DNA of 23,605 nucleotides from a virus (IMGVR_UViG_3300042924_004904:1-23605), one strand, 5' to 3'. Shown: positions 2,150 through 21,647, counted from the first letter of the stretch. Numbers and translations are program-made. Notes: generated from the sequence alone by a model not told the origin.

Positions 2150-2185
2150 AGCCCCCGCCAGCGTAATGCTGACAGGGGCTTTTTC
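2150..2185 (+). terminator. Intrinsic terminator for rightward late transcripts (possibly bidirectional)
   Basis: AGCCCC at 2150-2155 pairs with GGGGCT at 2175-2180, with an inner CAGC/GCTG stem. On the plus strand the stem runs straight into five Ts, a standard intrinsic terminator for the lysis-gene transcript. Read on the minus strand it is followed by ACTTACTTTA and then about thirteen Ts, so it may also slow leftward transcription. It starts 71 bases past the last late gene. Confidence 0.75.
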
Positions 2186-2187
2186 AT

Positions 2188-3030
2188 TTAGAACTCATTT
2201 TGTGCTAAGTCACCTATAACCTCCCAGTTTACAGGAACAGCGTTGTAAGCTTGTGTACCCTGCACTGGTTTACCAATACCTGTTCTAATTTCTAAACGTG
2301 GTTTTAGTTCTATTACAACTTTTGGAAAAGACACATCTGGATGAAGACTCTCTAAGTAAGAATAAACATTTTGCTTAAAAGAGTCTTTTTCACGTTTTAG
2401 ATATATCTCTGCCCACCACCAAAAACCTTGAACTGTTTTGTTCCAGTTGAACAACTCTCCTAGATCATTTGTTGTTTCTACTAGTAACTGTAGCTCTTCT
2501 TTCACTAAAGGTAAGCCTAGTTGGTTTAACACTTCTTTGTTAATTTCTTTCTTGTTAATACGATCAGCAAGATACTCAAAGCAGTAACAGAAAGTTTTTA
2601 TTAACTCTTTAATTTCTTCTTTTGAGAGTCTCATTGGTTCAATGTAAACATGATCTCTTAGACAGTTAGCCAACCCTAGATCACTAAGTTGTGCAGTAAC
2701 TCGTTCCATTCGGATATAGTTGAAGAATTTTTTCTTATCAATAATCTTATAGTAGTGTTCTTCAACTTCTTGCAGTAGTAGATCTCTAAACTTATAAAGA
2801 TCTTTTTTGTAGTCTCCAAAAGCCTCTGGGCTAATGGTATTTCTACCCGTACCCTTGTACTTTTTTTCGAAGGCTTTTAGAACTTTGTTAGCAACGGCTA
2901 CTCTGTTATCTTTATACTGGCCATACCAGTCATGCCTAACTTCTTCCCAATCTTCCCAGCCAATAATTTCGGGGTTATAGAGGACACTCAAGTTATAGAT
3001 AAAGTTAGCTACCTTACTAACATTAACCAT
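2188..3030 (-). CDS. Unknown 280-aa protein, last gene of the amidoligase operon
   Basis: I do not recognise this protein. It is predicted to be largely helical and is rich in K, E, Y and W, with an aromatic cluster (NKTVQGFWWWAEIYLKREK) in its second half. The C-terminal ~50 residues are more beta-like and proline-containing (PKVVIELKPRLEIRTGIGKP). No signal peptide or membrane segment is visible. Its start overlaps the end of the ATP-grasp gene by 8 bases, so the two are probably translationally coupled and functionally linked. It could be a substrate-binding, carrier or helical accessory subunit of the ligase system, or the acceptor protein. That is inference from position only. Confidence 0.75.
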   Translation of the reverse strand: MVNVSKVANFIYNLSVLYNPEIIGWEDWEEVRHDWYGQYKDNRVAVANKVLKAFEKKYKGTGRNTISPEAFGDYKKDLYKFRDLLLQEVEEHYYKIIDKKKFFNYIRMERVTAQLSDLGLANCLRDHVYIEPMRLSKEEIKELIKTFCYCFEYLADRINKKEINKEVLNQLGLPLVKEELQLLVETTNDLGELFNWNKTVQGFWWWAEIYLKREKDSFKQNVYSYLESLHPDVSFPKVVIELKPRLEIRTGIGKPVQGTQAYNAVPVNWEVIGDLAQNEF

Positions 3031-3817
3031 TTTTTAGCCTTTCGAACATTTCTACATAGTCTCCAATAGTAGATCCTTCTAGACCTGGAGCAGTATTTAC
3101 TTCAAGAGCATAAGCTTGCTCTTGTCGTTCGTTATAAATAACGTCAATTGCGCCAAAGTCTAAGCCTGTAATCTTCAGAGCCTTTAGAGCTTCTGTTTCA
3201 CAACTCTCAGGTACTTCGAGATCTTGTTTAGCAAAGATAAAACCGTTTGAATGGTTTCGAATTTGGTAATCTACTTGCTCATTAGGAATTTCTTTTTTCT
3301 TCAGTTTTTCTTGAACACAAAAGACACCTTGTACTCGATCTACATGGAAACGAAATTCTCGTTTTTTAGGCACATACACAACAAACATAGTACCTTCAGC
3401 AATAGGCTCTAGGTCTTCTACTGTGTTTACTTTTACAATACCTTCACCTGAATGTCCGGTTAGTACTGTACGAGCAAAAATCTTTTTTGGTTTCTCCTCA
3501 GACAACCACTGCCTAGCTACCTCTTTAGAGAAAGTAAAGTCTGGAATTTTAGGTCCAAGTTCACCAGCTTCTTTCGCTAGTTCAAAGAAGTTTTTCTTGT
3601 TACTAGCTCGATTTACTAACTCAGGCTTATTTAAAATACGAGTTCCTTCAAGTAGTGGGGTTAACACAGTAGAACCCCAGTTGATTACTGTTTTCCTTGC
3701 AGAAGGTCTAAATCTAGAGTTCTCTAGCCGAATTACCTTTCCCTCAATACCTTGAGCTAAGGCAATTGCACTTTTCGAAGCTTGACGATAAGGATAGACA
3801 AAGTTTTCAGTAGCCAT
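3023..3817 (-). CDS. ATP-grasp domain ligase (RimK/glutathione-synthetase-like fold)
   Basis: This 264-aa protein shows the ATP-grasp order. An N-terminal pre-ATP-grasp segment ends VINWGS. The ILNKPELVNRASNKKNFFELAKEAG helix follows, as in RimK-like ligases. Next come a nucleotide-binding segment (IFARTVLTGHSGEGIVKV, about 113-130), EFRFHV, and the C-terminal metal-binding core GLDFGAIDVIY...LEVNTAPG with E239 and N241. Members of this fold join a carboxylate, via an acyl-phosphate, to an amine. The protein is on the short side for the family but has all core elements. It sits between an amidoligase gene (one base away) and an unknown gene, in the same operon as two glutamine amidotransferase-like proteins. 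The acceptor and donor are not identifiable. Confidence 0.88.
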   Translation of the reverse strand: MATENFVYPYRQASKSAIALAQGIEGKVIRLENSRFRPSARKTVINWGSTVLTPLLEGTRILNKPELVNRASNKKNFFELAKEAGELGPKIPDFTFSKEVARQWLSEEKPKKIFARTVLTGHSGEGIVKVNTVEDLEPIAEGTMFVVYVPKKREFRFHVDRVQGVFCVQEKLKKKEIPNEQVDYQIRNHSNGFIFAKQDLEVPESCETEALKALKITGLDFGAIDVIYNERQEQAYALEVNTAPGLEGSTIGDYVEMFERLKNG

Positions 3818-3818
3818 G

Positions 3819-4643
3819 TTATTTAGTCTCCCAGTTTGTTAGGAATACCCAGTGTTGAATTTGACGAATACTCTCGTACAGTGACTCTTCAAAGTGAGGT
3901 TTGCTAACTTGCTTCTTAGCATGTTCACCTAGCAACTTAGTAACTACTTCTGTTGCACCATTTGCAGACATACTAGACAATAGCTCTAGCGGACTTGAGA
4001 AATGCTTTAGAGCATTTTCTTTTAAGGTAAACAACATATCAGTCCACTCAATAATTTTTTCTCGGTTAGTAGGAGTACGCAAAGCACGAAACTCTAGAGA
4101 ACCAAACTTACTCAAGCTAACCAAGTTCATAGCACTATAACGAAGATTTTCATTATGAAAGATACCCCCGTCAGAGGTTACATCTTTGTATGTCAGAGTA
4201 CTCATGATACCAATGTTAACATAGTCTGCATCAGATAGCCTTAGACAGAACAGATTGCCTTGTCGCTCTTCACCTGCTTCTTCGGTGATAAGGTCTTCAA
4301 GACAGTAGTAAGCTGCCATAACTGTAAACAACTGACGTAGGGTCAATCGCTGACAATTAAGATGCACATGTACACCAGCTCGCATAGAGTCATTTATCTT
4401 GCCATCTAGAAGATCATACAAGATATTGACTTCTTTAAAAGCTTCTTCTTTAGACAGAGGATAACGGAATACATACTCCTTAGCTTCACCCCTTAATGAC
4501 CCGTCATTCATAACTCGCCAGTTATCATTGACTTCTAAAGGTAACCTTTGATTACCCTCTACTTCTACTTCAATTCCGATATCTCCTTTTTTACCAGAAA
4601 GATCCCAGAACTCATTTACTTTTCTATCGAGAAAGGTGCTCAT
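3819..4643 (-). CDS. Putative amidoligase, glutamine-synthetase-like fold
   Basis: This 274-aa protein matches the putative amidoligase family. GIEVEVEG (23-30) gives the acidic metal ligands E25, E27 and E29. NDGSL (46-50), AGVHVHLN (89-96, with H92 and H94) and the FGSLEFRALRTP arginine motif near residue 200 follow in the usual order. The fold is that of glutamine synthetase and gamma-glutamylcysteine synthetase, and members are thought to make amide bonds at the cost of ATP. The start overlaps the preceding gene's end by 20 bases. A second protein of the same broad fold is encoded two genes upstream (5219-6061), so the operon has two GS-like ligases plus one ATP-grasp ligase. Confidence 0.85.
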   Translation of the reverse strand: MSTFLDRKVNEFWDLSGKKGDIGIEVEVEGNQRLPLEVNDNWRVMNDGSLRGEAKEYVFRYPLSKEEAFKEVNILYDLLDGKINDSMRAGVHVHLNCQRLTLRQLFTVMAAYYCLEDLITEEAGEERQGNLFCLRLSDADYVNIGIMSTLTYKDVTSDGGIFHNENLRYSAMNLVSLSKFGSLEFRALRTPTNREKIIEWTDMLFTLKENALKHFSSPLELLSSMSANGATEVVTKLLGEHAKKQVSKPHFEESLYESIRQIQHWVFLTNWETK

Positions 4644-5226
4644 ATCCTACTTCCTTGGCAAATTCTTCTTCTACGAAGTTGAAGTTATTGTCTAGTTTAA
4701 ACTTATCGTCTTTGTTTAAACTACCGATTGTAAATCCTTTATACAAGAGTTTATACTTACTGCTAAGAGCAAAGTTTTTGCTAAAAGCAATATCGTTATT
4801 CCATTCTTCAGATAACTCAATAACTGTTTCTAGCTTAGGAAACTGATTGTTGATACACTTGTTAACTGCTTTTGCATTTTGCTCTAGCCATAGCTCAGAA
4901 ACAGGAGAAGAACCCCCATTCCTAGTAAAGTTAAGTTGTGAAGATCGAATACCTTGACGATAATCTCTACGCAAAGGTAGTCTGCTTACAAACATTGCAA
5001 TACCAGAGATAACATCGTTAACATAACCTAGCTTACCAATGTTAAACTCAAGGTCTGTAATTTTGATTTGCACATGTAGTTTGTCTTGGTTTAAAGCAGT
5101 AATAACTGCCTTATCTAACAAGTTACTCTTAGAAGAGATATCTAAGATTTTATATAACTGGCCTTTACCTCGCATATAGCTTGACACGATGCGAGAACGT
5201 GCATATTCTGCGTCATTATTAAACAT
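4624..5226 (-). CDS. Unknown 200-aa protein between two GS-fold ligases
   Basis: I do not recognise this protein. It is soluble, lysine- and asparagine-rich, with a mixed alpha/beta pattern (HVQIKITDLEFNIGKLG, then a helical VISGIAMFVSRLPLRRDYRQG), an RSSQLNFTRNGGSSPVSELWLEQN loop segment and a polar C-terminus (NNFNFVEEEFAKEVGYEH). No metal-binding or nucleotide-binding motif is obvious. It overlaps the upstream ligase gene by 8 bases and the downstream amidoligase gene by 20 bases, the tightest coupling in the operon. A partner of one of the two ligases, or a diverged GS-like relic, are both possible; neither is shown by the sequence. Confidence 0.75.
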   Translation of the reverse strand: MFNNDAEYARSRIVSSYMRGKGQLYKILDISSKSNLLDKAVITALNQDKLHVQIKITDLEFNIGKLGYVNDVISGIAMFVSRLPLRRDYRQGIRSSQLNFTRNGGSSPVSELWLEQNAKAVNKCINNQFPKLETVIELSEEWNNDIAFSKNFALSSKYKLLYKGFTIGSLNKDDKFKLDNNFNFVEEEFAKEVGYEHLSR

Positions 5227-6061
5227 AGCTGCCCTTTAGCTCATTAAAGATAGCTTCACCTAGATAACCCCAGTTGTTATCAATAATCTCCTTAGCAGGA
5301 AGATTGATTGAACCTCTGAAGAAAGTTTGATTATTTGCACCTTTACGTTTTTTAGGATCCATAACACTACTAATTGCTTTAACAGTCGTGTCAAAGACAA
5401 ACCCAATTAACTCGTCGGATTGTAACCACTGGTTAGAACCTGAACGATACTCCATACCATAAGGTTTAGGACGGAAAGCCCCTGCAGCGCCATAAATAGA
5501 GCGCCTAAGAGCATCCTTATCCCAAGCTAGAGATGCTGCCCCCATATAGTAGTCCATCTCTGCTGCTAGAGCAGCACAGGCAGCAATATGGCGTGGATCT
5601 CGAGTAGGCATATCCCTACCCCATCCAATGTGAACATGACCACCAGCGGACCGAATATTAGGGTCTGGCAGCCTAGGACGAGGGTTCTTATCAAAGGTGT
5701 AGGCATTATAATCAGGATCACAACCCAACTCAAGTGCTTCAGGGGGCTGTGCTGCCATTACTTCAGGAGAGAACTTTGCAATAGAAGCCACAGACAAGCT
5801 GTGACCTTCTGGCAACATCTCTTTTAACTGACTCAGAACATCTTTTACTCGATAAACAAAATCACCTTTGGTAGCTGAAGGATCAATACCAAACTCCAAA
5901 GCCATTCCATCAACTTGAACCATACCGTTACGTACCTTCAGTGGTTCTTCTTTAGTGCCGGGAATCATTCCATGAGCACTTACAAATTCTCCTTTGCTGT
6001 TTACAACAAAGACTTCAGGGTCGCAACCAAGAAGGAATTCTACATTGTTAATGATAGCCAT
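5219..6061 (-). CDS. phiEco32-like COOH-NH2 ligase type 2 (glutamine-synthetase-like fold)
   Basis: This 280-aa protein has the marks of the family named after phage phiEco32. LGCDPEVFVVNSKGEFVSAHG (11-31) gives the first acidic ligands. Then come VDGMALEFGIDPS (50-62), a second LGCDPDYNAYT (112-122), AGGHVHIGWG (139-148, with H142 and H144) and a YRSGSNQWL arginine motif near residue 211. The paired acidic and HxH motifs are those of the glutamine synthetase fold, where they bind Mg-ATP and the carboxylate. It is predicted to form amide bonds. It follows the class II amidotransferase gene by 16 bases. Its first six residues, MAIINN, equal those of the single-strand-binding protein at 22161, with different codons. 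Confidence 0.85.
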   Translation of the reverse strand: MAIINNVEFLLGCDPEVFVVNSKGEFVSAHGMIPGTKEEPLKVRNGMVQVDGMALEFGIDPSATKGDFVYRVKDVLSQLKEMLPEGHSLSVASIAKFSPEVMAAQPPEALELGCDPDYNAYTFDKNPRPRLPDPNIRSAGGHVHIGWGRDMPTRDPRHIAACAALAAEMDYYMGAASLAWDKDALRRSIYGAAGAFRPKPYGMEYRSGSNQWLQSDELIGFVFDTTVKAISSVMDPKKRKGANNQTFFRGSINLPAKEIIDNNWGYLGEAIFNELKGSYV

Positions 6062-6077
6062 TTTAGCTTCCTATAGT

Positions 6078-7169
6078 TTACGATGCAGTTTTAAAGGATT
6101 TAGCACAGGTAACACAGAATGGAGTATCTCGCTCCATCCATTTTACAAAACCTTCTAGTTGATCTTCATACTCAAGATCTACTTGACAAGCCGCACAACC
6201 ATACTTTGCAAGGTTGTTAAACTCTTTCTCAGTGAGTTCAGACATGTCCAACCAACCAGAGTCGCTACGAAAGGGCTCTTCTAGCTTCCTAACCCCCTCT
6301 AGCCAAGTTGGTTTATGATGTTCTTTTAGCTTGAGTTGTTTTCGGTTATTAGGTAACGGGACTACTTTATTACCACCAACAACCGTAGGAGTCGTAACCG
6401 TAGTCTTTACTACTAAAGGGGGTACAGCAGTTACTTGTACTCCTTTTACTTCATTGTCTCCTAGTTTGATTTGAAGCAACTCATCTACATTAAACTCTTT
6501 AATATTATTAACTAGCTCAGGCAACTTAGCTTTAGCCAAGGCTACTTTAAGAATCCACTGTTCACTTGCATAAGCATAAACTGTTTTTCCAGCATTATGC
6601 GTGTAGAACAAAGGTCGTTCTTTGTTTCGATAGATATTAAAAGTTTTAGTACTGGCATCCCACCAAGTCATTGCTGCAGCACCTGTTACAGTGTCCATCA
6701 CTTTTTTGATGCTCCAACCCCTAGAAAGAGCAAAGATCAACTTTTCTGAATCAGTATGACCTTCAATTTCTTCACTTGTAGGTAAAAAAGATAGTCCTCC
6801 ACTAATAGTCCCATTATGGCAACCAGTGATAGCACCATGATGAAAAGGATGAGCATTAGTAGCATTAACTGCACCAATAGTAGCAGAACGATTGTGACCC
6901 ATTAAAAAGTCAAAACGTTCATTAGTACGGCTATGTAACATTCCTTTCCCATCAAACAACTCTGGAAACTTTCGAGCTAAGCTAGAAGGATGACCTTCTG
7001 TTTTAGCTACAACTACTTGTGAACGTTGTTTGTTGTTTAAAAAGCTTTTTCTTAAAGCAATACCTGTAGAGTCTTCTCCGCGGACTACATCAAGATGCAA
7101 CATCCATTTAAAAGCTTCTGAGTGTAGTGCTGTAAGATTAGCCCCTACAATACCTACTAGACCACACAT
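6078..7169 (-). CDS. Class II (Ntn-hydrolase) glutamine amidotransferase with C-terminal zinc-ribbon-like tail
   Basis: The protein starts MCGLVGIVG, placing the nucleophile at Cys2 after Met removal, as in PurF, GlmS and AsnB glutaminase domains. Other domain motifs are VRGEDSTGIAL, the GHNRSATIG...AHPFHHGAITGCHNGTI stretch and HTDSEKL. The Ntn domain fills about residues 1-235. A linker rich in T, V and P then leads to an ~90-residue tail with CAAC and CVTC pairs, probably one zinc site. No synthetase or isomerase domain is fused, so it would either pass ammonia or a glutamyl group to a separate ligase or act as an amidohydrolase. Its start overlaps the class I amidotransferase stop by one base. 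Confidence 0.88.
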   Translation of the reverse strand: MCGLVGIVGANLTALHSEAFKWMLHLDVVRGEDSTGIALRKSFLNNKQRSQVVVAKTEGHPSSLARKFPELFDGKGMLHSRTNERFDFLMGHNRSATIGAVNATNAHPFHHGAITGCHNGTISGGLSFLPTSEEIEGHTDSEKLIFALSRGWSIKKVMDTVTGAAAMTWWDASTKTFNIYRNKERPLFYTHNAGKTVYAYASEQWILKVALAKAKLPELVNNIKEFNVDELLQIKLGDNEVKGVQVTAVPPLVVKTTVTTPTVVGGNKVVPLPNNRKQLKLKEHHKPTWLEGVRKLEEPFRSDSGWLDMSELTEKEFNNLAKYGCAACQVDLEYEDQLEGFVKWMERDTPFCVTCAKSFKTAS

Positions 7170-7762
7170 TAGAGAATTCCTTCGAATTTGTGTTTCATTA
7201 GTTCTGCGAAGAAGTCAACTCCTTCTTCTGGGCAACTAGCATACTCTGGATGATATTGGACGCCTAGAAAGCCTGTATTAGTAGCTACAAGAACTTCTGT
7301 AGTACCTTCATGGCTAACATAGACTTGCTCTGCATAGTCAGTTTCATCAATAGGAACACATTGATGATGCGTTGAGTTAATTTTTAGTTCTTCCCAACCT
7401 GAAATAGGTTCTTCTAGATTGGTTAGCAACTTATGAACAGTACCTGCATGATTGTCAATATGTTGGACTAGCGTACCACCATTTGCTACATGAAGTAACT
7501 GCATTCCTCTACAAATACCTAACATTGGAATTTGTTTTAGTTTGCCAGCAATAACTGTAGAAAAGTCTTGATAGTCAATATCTTTATCTGAGTAAACTCC
7601 TTTTTGAGGCTCTTGATTATAAAGATAAGGGCTTACATCTACTCCTCCTCCAAAGACAATAAAGTCAGGATACTCATTATCTTTAGTTTCTACATAACCT
7701 AATTTTTTAAGCAAGTTAGAAACACTGTAGTCATGACGACTCATCATAAACTTAGCAGCCAT
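7169..7762 (-). CDS. Class I glutamine amidotransferase / gamma-glutamyl hydrolase-like (peptidase C26) protein
   Basis: This 197-aa protein has the class I triad: Cys84 in the nucleophile elbow MLGICRGMQ, and His171 and Glu173 in VQYHPEY. FIVFGGGVDVSPYLY (34-48) is the oxyanion-side loop typical of the PuuD/gamma-glutamyl hydrolase branch, which cuts gamma-glutamyl amides rather than feeding ammonia to a synthase. HATHH-like STHHQ (about 130) also fits that branch. It is a single domain, slightly shorter than PuuD. With the Cys2 amidotransferase just downstream, the operon contains two unrelated glutamine/glutamyl-handling folds. It follows the unknown first gene of the operon with a 2-base gap. 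Confidence 0.85.
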   Translation of the reverse strand: MAAKFMMSRHDYSVSNLLKKLGYVETKDNEYPDFIVFGGGVDVSPYLYNQEPQKGVYSDKDIDYQDFSTVIAGKLKQIPMLGICRGMQLLHVANGGTLVQHIDNHAGTVHKLLTNLEEPISGWEELKINSTHHQCVPIDETDYAEQVYVSHEGTTEVLVATNTGFLGVQYHPEYASCPEEGVDFFAELMKHKFEGIL

Positions 7763-7764
7763 TA

Positions 7765-8754
7765 TTATTCTCCAAGTTTGAGTTGTTTAGAAAGCAGTTC
7801 TACAGTAGAAAGGTTAATAGGTACTCCCCCCTTACTGTCCATACCAACAAGTACTTTAGATTTCAACTCAGTAACAGCATCTTCCCAAAGGAAAGAGTAG
7901 TTTTGTTCAATAGCTACAGTTGCATTAAACAACATAGAAGCAGTACCCTCTAGCAACCCTTTAAAAGAGTTAGTTAGAAGTGTTTCGTAACTTGCTTCAG
8001 GTTCTTTAGAGGCAGCACAGAGGATTGTGTTACTATTGTTAGGCCAACTTGACTCATTAAACTTACGTGCAAAATTAGGATTCCACGTAAAAGGCTTATT
8101 AGGATCATCTTTGCAGATTTCTTTTAATTTTACACTAGAATCAAGATAGCAGAAAGGCAAATGAGCGCTATTTGTAGAATATGCACAGTTTTTCATATGT
8201 TGCATTCTAGCAGACTTAGTTGCCTTAATATGTTTACCATCTGATACAAAACCAAGCTCAGTTGCAATATACAACAACAACAAAGGATGAATATCAAAGT
8301 CTGAAGCCATGATATCATAAACAGCTTTCATATCATTTTTAAATTCAGAGGTGCTTAAGCGAGATAACTGAGCTGCACCTAACCATTTTGCTGCAGAAAC
8401 ATCTACACGTTTAATAAAACCATACTTTAAGCTTAGTTCAACATCTTTACAAAGAAACACATCAGAAAAGAAACTTTTGTTAATCAACCAGTCATAAAAC
8501 TTAATTGCTCCTTTGTTAGTTTCTAGCCGATTATCTGCCATAGTAATAACTGCTAGTGCATTGGCACGATCCATAGCTGAGCTAATACCTGCATGGCAAG
8601 CTCCTGATACCCGCTTCTTTGGATTATAAGTACCTACTACATCTGTAGTATGCACTACATAGCCTGTCATTGCAGACTGTGAATTACGATAATCAGCAAA
8701 CACAGCATCATAAAACCCTTCAGAGTGCTGCTTTAGTAGAGTCTGGATATCCAT
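7765..8754 (-). CDS. Unknown 329-aa protein, first gene of the amidoligase operon
   Basis: I do not recognise this protein. It is soluble, with mixed alpha/beta character and a middle region rich in histidine and cysteine (IKATKSARMQHMKNCAYSTN, HLPFCYLDSS). It opens with a helical MDIQTLLKQHSEGFYDAVFADYR segment, and KRVSGACHAGISSAMDRANALAV follows near residue 50. No membrane segment is seen. The ATG at 8754 has a strong upstream site (AAGAGGT at 8767-8761). It is the first gene after the terminator at 8785-8802 and so probably begins a separate unit with the amidotransferase and ligase genes. A substrate-handling or peptide-binding role is only inference. Confidence 0.75.
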   Translation of the reverse strand: MDIQTLLKQHSEGFYDAVFADYRNSQSAMTGYVVHTTDVVGTYNPKKRVSGACHAGISSAMDRANALAVITMADNRLETNKGAIKFYDWLINKSFFSDVFLCKDVELSLKYGFIKRVDVSAAKWLGAAQLSRLSTSEFKNDMKAVYDIMASDFDIHPLLLLYIATELGFVSDGKHIKATKSARMQHMKNCAYSTNSAHLPFCYLDSSVKLKEICKDDPNKPFTWNPNFARKFNESSWPNNSNTILCAASKEPEASYETLLTNSFKGLLEGTASMLFNATVAIEQNYSFLWEDAVTELKSKVLVGMDSKGGVPINLSTVELLSKQLKLGE

Positions 8755-8784
8755 TTTGGACCTCTTAGCTAGGTTAAATAAAAA

Positions 8785-8802
8785 GCCCGGTTTTTACCGG
8801 GC
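8785..8802 (-). terminator. Intrinsic terminator after the reductase operon
   Basis: GCCCGGT (8785-8791) and ACCGGGC (8796-8802) form a perfect 7-bp stem with a 4-base loop. On the minus strand it is followed at once by TTTTTATTT (8784-8776). It ends the reductase/glutaredoxin transcript. The stop codon of the gene at 8794-9039 lies inside the hairpin, so the last codons (AAG GCC CGG TAA) double as terminator. Confidence 0.85.
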
Positions 8803-9039
8803 CTTTAACGATGATATTTCTTTATCTTTGTCACAAACATAGTGACCTACTACTTTAAAGTCTATTAACTTTTTATTATCTTCTTCCCAAAGCACTATGT
8901 AAGAATTCTGAAAAGTGATCACCCATGAGTCTCTACCTGCAGAGATAGAATGACTTACAATACGATCTTCTTTTTCACTTTCAATTTTTATAATATCCCC
9001 TCGTTTGAGGGAACACCATTTATCGTACAGTGTAGACAT
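8794..9039 (-). CDS. Unknown 81-aa protein downstream of glutaredoxin
   Basis: This small, beta-rich, charged protein (LKRGDIIKIESEKEDRIVSHSISAGRDSWVITFQNSYIVLWEEDNKKLIDFKVVG, given here in two continuous segments split at about residue 27) has a pattern like a small barrel or SH3-like fold, but I recognise no family. I prefer the ATG at 9039 (MSTLYDKW) to the TTG at 9066, because the TTG itself overlaps the only GGAGG and would extend into the glutaredoxin gene. The overlap with glutaredoxin is 20 bases. Its 3' end is inside the terminator hairpin. Confidence 0.6.
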   Translation of the reverse strand: MSTLYDKWCSLKRGDIIKIESEKEDRIVSHSISAGRDSWVITFQNSYIVLWEEDNKKLIDFKVVGHYVCDKDKEISSLKAR

Positions 9040-13048: not shown

Positions 13049-13187
13049 AACACTTATTTCCTGTTGATAATGTTGGAGGTAACTCGTAAGACTTTACTCT
13101 TACTTTAAAGCCGCAAGTATTGCATTTGTAAACATTGTCAAGTGACGCAATTAGAATGTCATACCAGACCCATTTACAAGCTTTCAT
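12942..13187 (-). CDS. Small cysteine-rich zinc-ribbon-like protein overlapping the MazG-like gene
   Basis: This 81-aa frame starts in an ATGA overlap with the acetyltransferase stop (13184), good evidence that its start is used. The first half has KCNTCGFKV plus further cysteines at GNKCYEQ and NETCRRSCRAC, consistent with one or two zinc sites. The last ~35 codons overlap the MazG-like gene in another frame for 107 bases, and the sequence there (SSTEVCCLWTGRGSP) looks like a shadow translation, so the functional part may be just the first ~45 residues. It is the only explanation for the 135 bases between the two neighbours. Confidence 0.5.
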   Translation of the reverse strand: MKACKWVWYDILIASLDNVYKCNTCGFKVRVKSYELPPTLSTGNKCYEQTAILPNETCRRSCRACTSSTEVCCLWTGRGSP

Positions 13188-13633
13188 TTTAAGTCTTTCT
13201 TGTAAGTATATTCAACAACTTCATAACCTCTCTTAGTATACAAGAAATCTAAGTTGCTCATTTTACTGGTATAGGACATAGAGACAAAGTCTGCTTTAGC
13301 AGTTTCTTTAGCCCAACTTTCAAAATCACTTAGCATTTCAATGCTTTTACGTCCTCTGTAGTCAGACTGAACATACCATCCTAGCTCAGAAGCAATAATC
13401 TCATCAAAGTAAGGTCCTTCACTTGCAATACCAACTAGTAACCCAACTACTTTTTCGTTATCTTTTAAAACACTACAGTAGTAGTTTTTATCATAGACTA
13501 AAGATGCTTCAAGAATAGAACGCAGTTTAGCTCGGTTAAACTTTTTAGATTGCCCATAAACAGTATTAAATTCGTTTGCTAAGTTAAGAGTAGGCTCAAT
13601 ATCAAACACTTGCAATCGCTCTAAGTTGATCAT
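13184..13633 (-). CDS. GNAT-family N-acetyltransferase-like protein
   Basis: This 149-aa protein has the GNAT secondary-structure order and motifs. An N-terminal strand-helix is followed by KVVGLLVGIAS (beta4-like), ELGWYVQSDYRGRKSIEMLSDFESWAK (the acetyl-CoA pyrophosphate loop Q/RxxGxG/A in degenerate form, SDYRGRKS, then its helix) and YTKRGYEVVEYTYKKDL at the end. It overlaps the primase-helicase stop by 4 bases. The acceptor could be a protein or a small molecule. GNAT-fold proteins can also act as amidoligases, but nothing links it to the operon at 2188-8754. Confidence 0.75.
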   Translation of the reverse strand: MINLERLQVFDIEPTLNLANEFNTVYGQSKKFNRAKLRSILEASLVYDKNYYCSVLKDNEKVVGLLVGIASEGPYFDEIIASELGWYVQSDYRGRKSIEMLSDFESWAKETAKADFVSMSYTSKMSNLDFLYTKRGYEVVEYTYKKDLK

Positions 13634-21236: not shown

Positions 21237-21647
21237 TTACCTGTAATAAGCTAGTGTTGCTTCCATTGCTTCCTCAAGTGTGTGATGCACTTCTGTTGCA
21301 AAGCAATCAATAAAAGGATGATTGAATCCTTCTTCAAGCACCACAATGATAGTTTTTAATTGGCCTTGAGCAATCATTAACTCACAAATAGTACCCCAAG
21401 CTTTACCAGCACCACGATCTTTAAGGTTCATTAGTACTGTAGAAGCTTCACGAATATCATCGATATCCATCTTTACAATTTTTTTTGCAAGATTAAGAGA
21501 GTAAGGCTGATCATGAAACTTTTTACGACGAGTAGGATCTAGTGTGTTAATACGATGTCCATGAAAAAAGCTAGTGGCAGTTTCCCGCCACTTTGTTGCT
21601 TCCTCCAAGCTAATACCTTCGATAGGACCAGCTAGATAAACAGTCAT
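21237..21647 (-). CDS. Nucleoside 2-deoxyribosyltransferase-like protein
   Basis: This 136-aa Rossmann-like protein begins VYLAGPIEG, then has NTLDPTRRKKF, MDIDDIREASTVLMNLKD and RGAGKAWGTICELMIAQGQ. This is the order of the nucleoside 2-deoxyribosyltransferase / DUF4406 family (LAGPI; D..DI..AD; G(T)..E...A). Enzymes of this group move deoxyribose between bases or hydrolyse nucleoside monophosphates, with a glutamate in the G-x-x-x-E segment as nucleophile. It could serve salvage or the making of unusual nucleotides. It is one gene from the phage-type promoter. Confidence 0.78.
   Translation of the reverse strand: MTVYLAGPIEGISLEEATKWRETATSFFHGHRINTLDPTRRKKFHDQPYSLNLAKKIVKMDIDDIREASTVLMNLKDRGAGKAWGTICELMIAQGQLKTIIVVLEEGFNHPFIDCFATEVHHTLEEAMEATLAYYR

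Follow-up and report, generated by a model that had tools for sequence, protein, structure and literature searches.

Gene content of the cassette

The phage fragment IMGVR_UViG_3300042924_004904, a linear IMG/VR entry of 23,605 nucleotides that is called the 23.6-kb window here, carries on its minus strand, at 2188-8754, an eight-gene cassette of ligases, amidotransferases and accessory proteins, ordered P8-P7-P6-P5-P4-P3-P2-P1 in the direction of transcription. All eight open reading frames (ORFs) that the original prediction, made from the sequence alone, had placed here are present, and neighboring ORFs overlap or nearly abut. The cassette is of a kind already known and predicted by comparative genomics, and the window is a further member; as had been supposed, no function is known from experiment, and our literature search turned up neither a knockout nor an in vitro assay for any of its genes. 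The operon had also been described as complete-looking, which is not quite accurate, since the window lacks the gamma-glutamyl cyclotransferase (GGCT) that many related cassettes contain. The features are as follows (GS, glutamine synthetase).

8781-8806, minus strand: intrinsic terminator or attenuator hairpin, directly upstream of P8
7765-8754, minus strand: P8, 329 aa, opens the operon; member of a recurrent family that shows a Cys/Arg/His signature
7169-7762, minus strand: P7, 197 aa, Peptidase C26 by best match (gamma-glutamyl hydrolase type), with the fold of class I amidotransferases
6078-7169, minus strand: P6, 363 aa, glutamine amidotransferase of class II (Ntn) with Cys2 as nucleophile
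6105-6197, minus strand: C-terminal four-Cys motif of P6 (C325, C328, C352, C355), a probable zinc knuckle
5219-6061, minus strand: P5, 280 aa, phiEco32-like COOH-NH2 ligase (GS fold)
4624-5226, minus strand: P4, 200 aa, core component lying between the two GS-fold ligases
3819-4643, minus strand: P3, 274 aa, Amidoligase_2 (GS-fold ligase)
3023-3817, minus strand: P2, 264 aa, phage ATP-grasp ligase ('S6 glutaminyl transferase' type)
2188-3030, minus strand: P1, 280 aa, lineage-specific, last gene of the operon
2150-2180, minus strand: intrinsic terminator downstream of P1; another hairpin with a T-run comes next, at about 2120-2085

Profile searches place all three ligases in families, none failing outright. 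P5 matches PHROG 3815 (8e-76) and scores 23.6 bits against Pfam COOH-NH2_lig, slightly below the 25-bit cut-off; it is 50% identical to its homologue in Pseudomonas phage PA11. Its 21 invariant columns over diverged relatives, including D14, E16, D51, E56, H142, H144, R186, R197, E204 and R206, are retained in the alignment with the founder of the family, phiEco32 gp86. P3 reaches 39.2 bits against Pfam Amidoligase_2 (cut-off 22), with G23, E25, E27, H92, H94, N173, E184 and R186 invariant over diverged relatives. P2 belongs to the phage ATP-grasp family PHROG 2599 (9e-70), its Pfam ATP-grasp scores staying under the cut-offs, and K74, R156, K171, D225, E239 and N241 are invariant among its relatives. 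A sequence search of solved structures gave no match for P5 or P3. Some loci carry additional ligases: one has a second COOH-NH2 ligase (L026:2478-3278), and another a second pair of amidoligase and P4 on the opposite strand (L046:8176-9614).

The two amidotransferases differ in fold. P6 matches Pfam GATase_6 with 59 bits (cut-off 27); Arg94, Asn119-Gly120 and Asp140 are invariant across relatives, and Cys2 is present in the window protein. In its tail C325, C352 and C355 are each kept in 90% or more of 18 diverse sequences, in keeping with the probable zinc knuckle. The Pfam scan of its 363 residues found neither an SIS isomerase domain nor a synthetase domain, and we therefore rejected P6 as GlmS (glutamine-fructose-6-phosphate transaminase): the four-Cys tail stands where the isomerase domain would be. 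For the same reason the database label 'L-glutamine-D-fructose-6-phosphate aminotransferase' misleads for P6 homologues. In phage phiM6, a second class II glutamine amidotransferase adjoins the GGCT gene (L005:2916-4022, minus strand). P7 had been proposed as a C26-like class I amidotransferase or hydrolase. The fold stands, with 85 bits against Peptidase_C26 (8e-24; cut-off 20.5) and 55 bits against GATase, an STHHQ motif and a Cys84/His171/Glu173 triad invariant across relatives; by these family matches, a gamma-glutamyl hydrolase (C26) fits better than an ammonia-supplying amidotransferase. The catalytic residues had been regarded as intact, and the active-site columns of P5, P3, P6, P7 and P2 are indeed invariant or nearly so; loss of active sites among relatives, named beforehand as an argument against the operon, was not seen.

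P4 is a newly recognized core member and P8 a newly recognized recurrent member of the cassette. Profile searches with Pfam, PHROGs and NCBIfam gave no family of known function for P1, P4 or P8, and the Pfam scans gave no family at all for P4 and P8. The AF2 model of P4 is confident (pLDDT 95) and has no fold match in the PDB at E<=0.001; a Tudor/EF-P-like assignment was rejected as noise, the best PDB matches having E >=0.06 and TM-scores of about 0.2-0.27, and the sole sequence match among solved structures was a chance antibody (E 1.3). Eleven viral proteins match P4 at E<=0.001, including those of phages CW02 and Vp_R1, both of which also bear cassette enzymes, and all named significant viral matches belong to cassette-bearing phages. 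LUZ24 gp17 and phiEco32 gp85 are distant homologues that occupy the corresponding place in their cassettes. Alignment-based scans of the sequence collection yielded nothing for P4 or P8, too little of either protein being conserved. Because it sits between the ligases and varies with them, P4 is probably their structural partner, carrier or substrate. In P8, Cys53 is nearly invariant within a '[GP]-x-C-H-A/G' motif, and Arg132 and His198 are invariant, which suggests an enzyme. Its AF2 model is weak (pLDDT 67) and found no fold match, nor did its sequence match any solved structure.

The cassette was predicted to be set off by terminators, and hairpins at both borders bear this out. The terminator after P1 (13-bp stem, nine GC pairs, U-run; z -5.4) was detected by a pattern scan and is conserved in relatives. 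The hairpin on the P8 side has a GC stem and U5 about 20 nt ahead of the P8 start (fold -17.3 kcal/mol, z -3.2), shows paired sequence changes among relatives and is retained in the close relatives L019 and L020. Folding supports this hairpin although the pattern scan did not pick it up, a miss probably explained by a stem that is able to continue into the T-run. A hairpin so near the first start codon suggests control by attenuation or read-through, and because little room for a promoter is left between it and P8, the operon is probably expressed by read-through. Predicted sigma-70 promoters for the operon did not exceed those in shuffled sequences and were rejected; the sequence following the hairpin was rejected as a repeated phage promoter, being single-copy in the window.

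Distribution and conserved order

The cassette genes travel together in phages, as had been anticipated, and about 310 GenBank phages carry the cassette. A tblastn search of 50,697 GenBank phage records matched P5 in 317, P2 in 316, P3 in 331 and P6 in 326 records, with near-equal counts by organism; P7 was matched in 74 and, at tblastn sensitivity, P4 in 17, while P1 and P8 had no match. A neighborhood survey covered 51 IMG/VR loci, fetched by P5 alone and searched for the other genes by profiles; some gaps are contig ends. There, P3 and P6 occur in 50 loci, P2 and P4 in 49, and P7 in 38. P8 was found in 26 by profile and in five more as same-place remote relatives by profile-profile comparison (31/51), and P1 in 10, exclusively close relatives; the protein at the same position in PA11, ORF009, was rejected as a P1 homologue for want of a significant match. 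The inner order P7-P6-P5-P4-P3-P2 holds in most loci, with P8 ahead where present. GGCT is a frequent partner (21/51), and in three of six longer contigs of the window's relatives it is encoded elsewhere in the genome, unlinked to the cassette. A P5 search of 84,980 bacterial and archaeal genomes returned 14 loci, all on contigs of metagenome-assembled genomes shorter than 50 kb and most with the cassette; these are likely phage contigs. The P5 ligase is thus essentially phage-restricted and near-absent from cellular genomes.

Protein-distance matrices from 32 diverse loci correlate at 0.65-0.83 among P6, P5, P4 and P3, and at 0.49-0.72 after regressing out primase distance. These values come from raw identity distances, so that part of the common phage ancestry still remains in them. 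The corresponding values of P2 with the rest are 0.32-0.45. P6-P5-P4-P3 is the tight unit, and the ATP-grasp ligase is more loosely attached.

The Zobellviridae (Pseudomonas phage PA11 and Salinivibrio phage CW02) share the inner order of the window cassette: class I amidotransferase, class II amidotransferase, COOH-NH2 ligase, P4, amidoligase and ATP-grasp ligase. Their cassette precedes the primase/helicase, whereas that of the window closes the minus-strand block, after the ribonucleotide reductase genes. RIO-1/PSA-HP1-like podoviruses have in common with it one block of gamma-glutamyl amidoligase, second amidoligase, ATP-grasp ligase and glutamine amidotransferase, but the window has P7 and P8 in front, P1 last and no linked GGCT, and its lineage is Naomviridae-related. 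All core families, including distant P4 homologues, are shared with phiEco32 and LUZ24, in which the order is COOH-NH2 ligase, P4, amidoligase, Ntn amidotransferase and ATP-grasp ligase with a linked GGCT, and in which P7 and P8 were not detected. The LUZ24-like order, ending in GGCT, recurs in Planctomycetes phage ZRK32 (L073; OP650935.1, a partial record marked UNVERIFIED).

Proposed function and alternatives

On balance, we lean towards a phage-specific cassette that makes, and probably also undoes, gamma-glutamyl-type amide bonds in a conjugation cycle, because of its enzyme families, intact active sites, conserved order, co-variation, GGCT partner and near-absence from cells. Judging from family chemistry, P6 would convert glutamine to glutamate and ammonia, the GS-fold ligases P5 and P3 would use ATP to activate a carboxylate and couple it with an amine or with ammonia, and P2 would add a further residue. 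P7 and a GGCT encoded elsewhere may cut gamma-glutamyl amides, which could allow attachment, use or trimming of the group; the product might conceivably be a conjugate of peptide-like or amine type that forms in the course of infection and changes the host cell. In the relative SU10 the proteins are made: proteomics found the ATP-grasp, glutamine amidotransferase and YtfP/UPF0131 proteins to be early gene products (PMC4281155). The PuuA/PuuD gamma-glutamyl-putrescine pathway likewise pairs a GS-fold ligase with a C26 hydrolase, but its ligase family differs from those of the window, where PuuB/PuuC-like genes were not seen. Several points weigh against the proposed cycle. It is the partner enzymes, C26 and GGCT, that point to gamma-glutamyl specificity; the ligases do not reveal it, because GS-fold and ATP-grasp enzymes join many carboxylate/amine pairs. 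GGCT and P7 are each absent from some cassettes, and the ATP-grasp ligase, which co-varies weakly with the rest and shifts position between loci, may therefore perform a separate step. As to the target, we make no commitment to peptidoglycan over protein or small molecule.

Peptidoglycan, also suggested in the original prediction, is the target proposed in the literature. PMC5498523, citing Hardies 2013 and Iyer, describes a 'peptidoglycan modification cassette' in RIO-1/PSA-HP1-like podoviruses that would block superinfection; the cassette is mentioned for OM43 phages, and the proposal is repeated for phiEco32 (PMC10580990; for phiEco32 also PMC11318856). The ligases would then build unusual amides in stem peptides or their precursors, which GGCT and the amidotransferase would recycle or trim. 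The Pfam relatives of P2 include D-Ala-D-Ala ligase, and the window cassette adjoins an M15 peptidase endolysin. However, we found no experiment in the literature; lysis enzymes differ between cassette-bearing phages (M15 peptidase in the window, GH24 lysozyme in tf), so that no shared wall target is evident, and we noticed no recognizable murein-synthesis enzyme among the recurrent neighbor families, most of which were not profile-searched. We regard this role as possible but doubtful.

Modification of proteins, in which a RimK/Mvd-like ATP-grasp enzyme and the GS-fold ligases would put glutamate or an amide on proteins of the host or the phage, P4 serving as their recognition subunit or as a substrate, seems unlikely to us. 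The top NCBIfam matches of P2 are the peptide-modifying ATP-grasp enzymes MvdC/MvdD and RimK, all far under cut-offs, and P4, a core protein bound up with the ligases, does not look like an enzyme, but its C-terminus has no conserved acceptor residue.

A part in nitrogen or amino-acid metabolism, aiding host use of ammonium or nitrate, is improbable. It is claimed for phage ZRK32, which promoted growth with nitrogen, in passages of PMC10945688 that contain no gene-level test, and we confirmed that the ZRK32 record carries the cassette and GGCT. Against it, that record is partial and UNVERIFIED, the P5 ligase, unlike host-derived metabolic genes, is essentially missing from cells, and most of the hosts listed are Proteobacteria, whose phages are isolates of the plaque-forming type.

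Hypermodification of DNA, or another form of counter-restriction through base aminoacylation, is the least probable role. The phiEco32 group, whose phages bear the cassette, is described as 'remarkably resistant' to restriction-modification with no known pathway behind it (PMC11990801), a primase/helicase lies beside the cassette in many loci, and phiEco32 has a nucleotidyltransferase and a dCTP deaminase nearby. The authors of that report name other candidate causes, however, and DNA of two cassette-bearing phages is cut by ordinary enzymes: that of tf by RsaI, HpaI, EcoRV, SmaI and HaeIII (PMC3517423) and that of Delta by BamHI (PMC8540360). Both genomes contain the corresponding sites, as we checked, and bulk DNA modification was rejected as a general role on these grounds. 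A bolder version of the gamma-glutamyl reading, to which we give little credence, has the pathway confined to phages, P4 acting as its dedicated carrier or recognition protein and P8 as a novel Cys-dependent enzyme; its gamma-glutamyl-type conjugate would disarm host defenses early in infection and could underlie the restriction resistance of the phiEco32 group. None of the eight cassette proteins matched PADLOC defense-system models, and the main text of the CRISPRi-ART paper makes no mention of phiEco32-group phages.

Phage lineage and significance

The window is a marine-type phage fragment whose lineage, judged by protein similarity and gene order, is related to Naomviridae. By RNA polymerase the nearest named relative is Naomviridae phage DSS3_VP1 (48% identity), and the two share the order of two ribonucleotide reductase subunits, primase/helicase, exonuclease, DNA polymerase and RNA polymerase. 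Cassette genes were neither annotated nor found within the 50 kb of DSS3_VP1 examined, at the end of which lies a glutathionylspermidine-synthase-like gene, another type of amide ligase (L007:48498-49658). A close relative of the window (L009) encodes a lambda-J-like central tail fiber, which suggests a long-tailed virion. Next to the M15 endolysin, two overlapping small ORFs on the plus strand (1471-1719, with an N-terminal hydrophobic stretch, and 1637-1849, with a lipobox-like LLTGC start) resemble embedded Rz/Rz1 spanins. The minus strand also encodes a GNAT-type acetyltransferase (phrog_1249) within the replication block (13184-13633) and a nucleoside 2-deoxyribosyltransferase-like protein (21237-21647; Pfam PF15891 and PF05014 above cut-off).

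The ligase and amidotransferase set is kept in hundreds of phages and is essentially missing from cells, so it must repay the roughly 6 kb that it occupies. The conserved P4 and P8 families are concrete handles on its function, and since cassette-bearing phages of Escherichia coli K-12 (with O-antigen restored) and Pseudomonas aeruginosa PAO1 exist, direct testing is possible.

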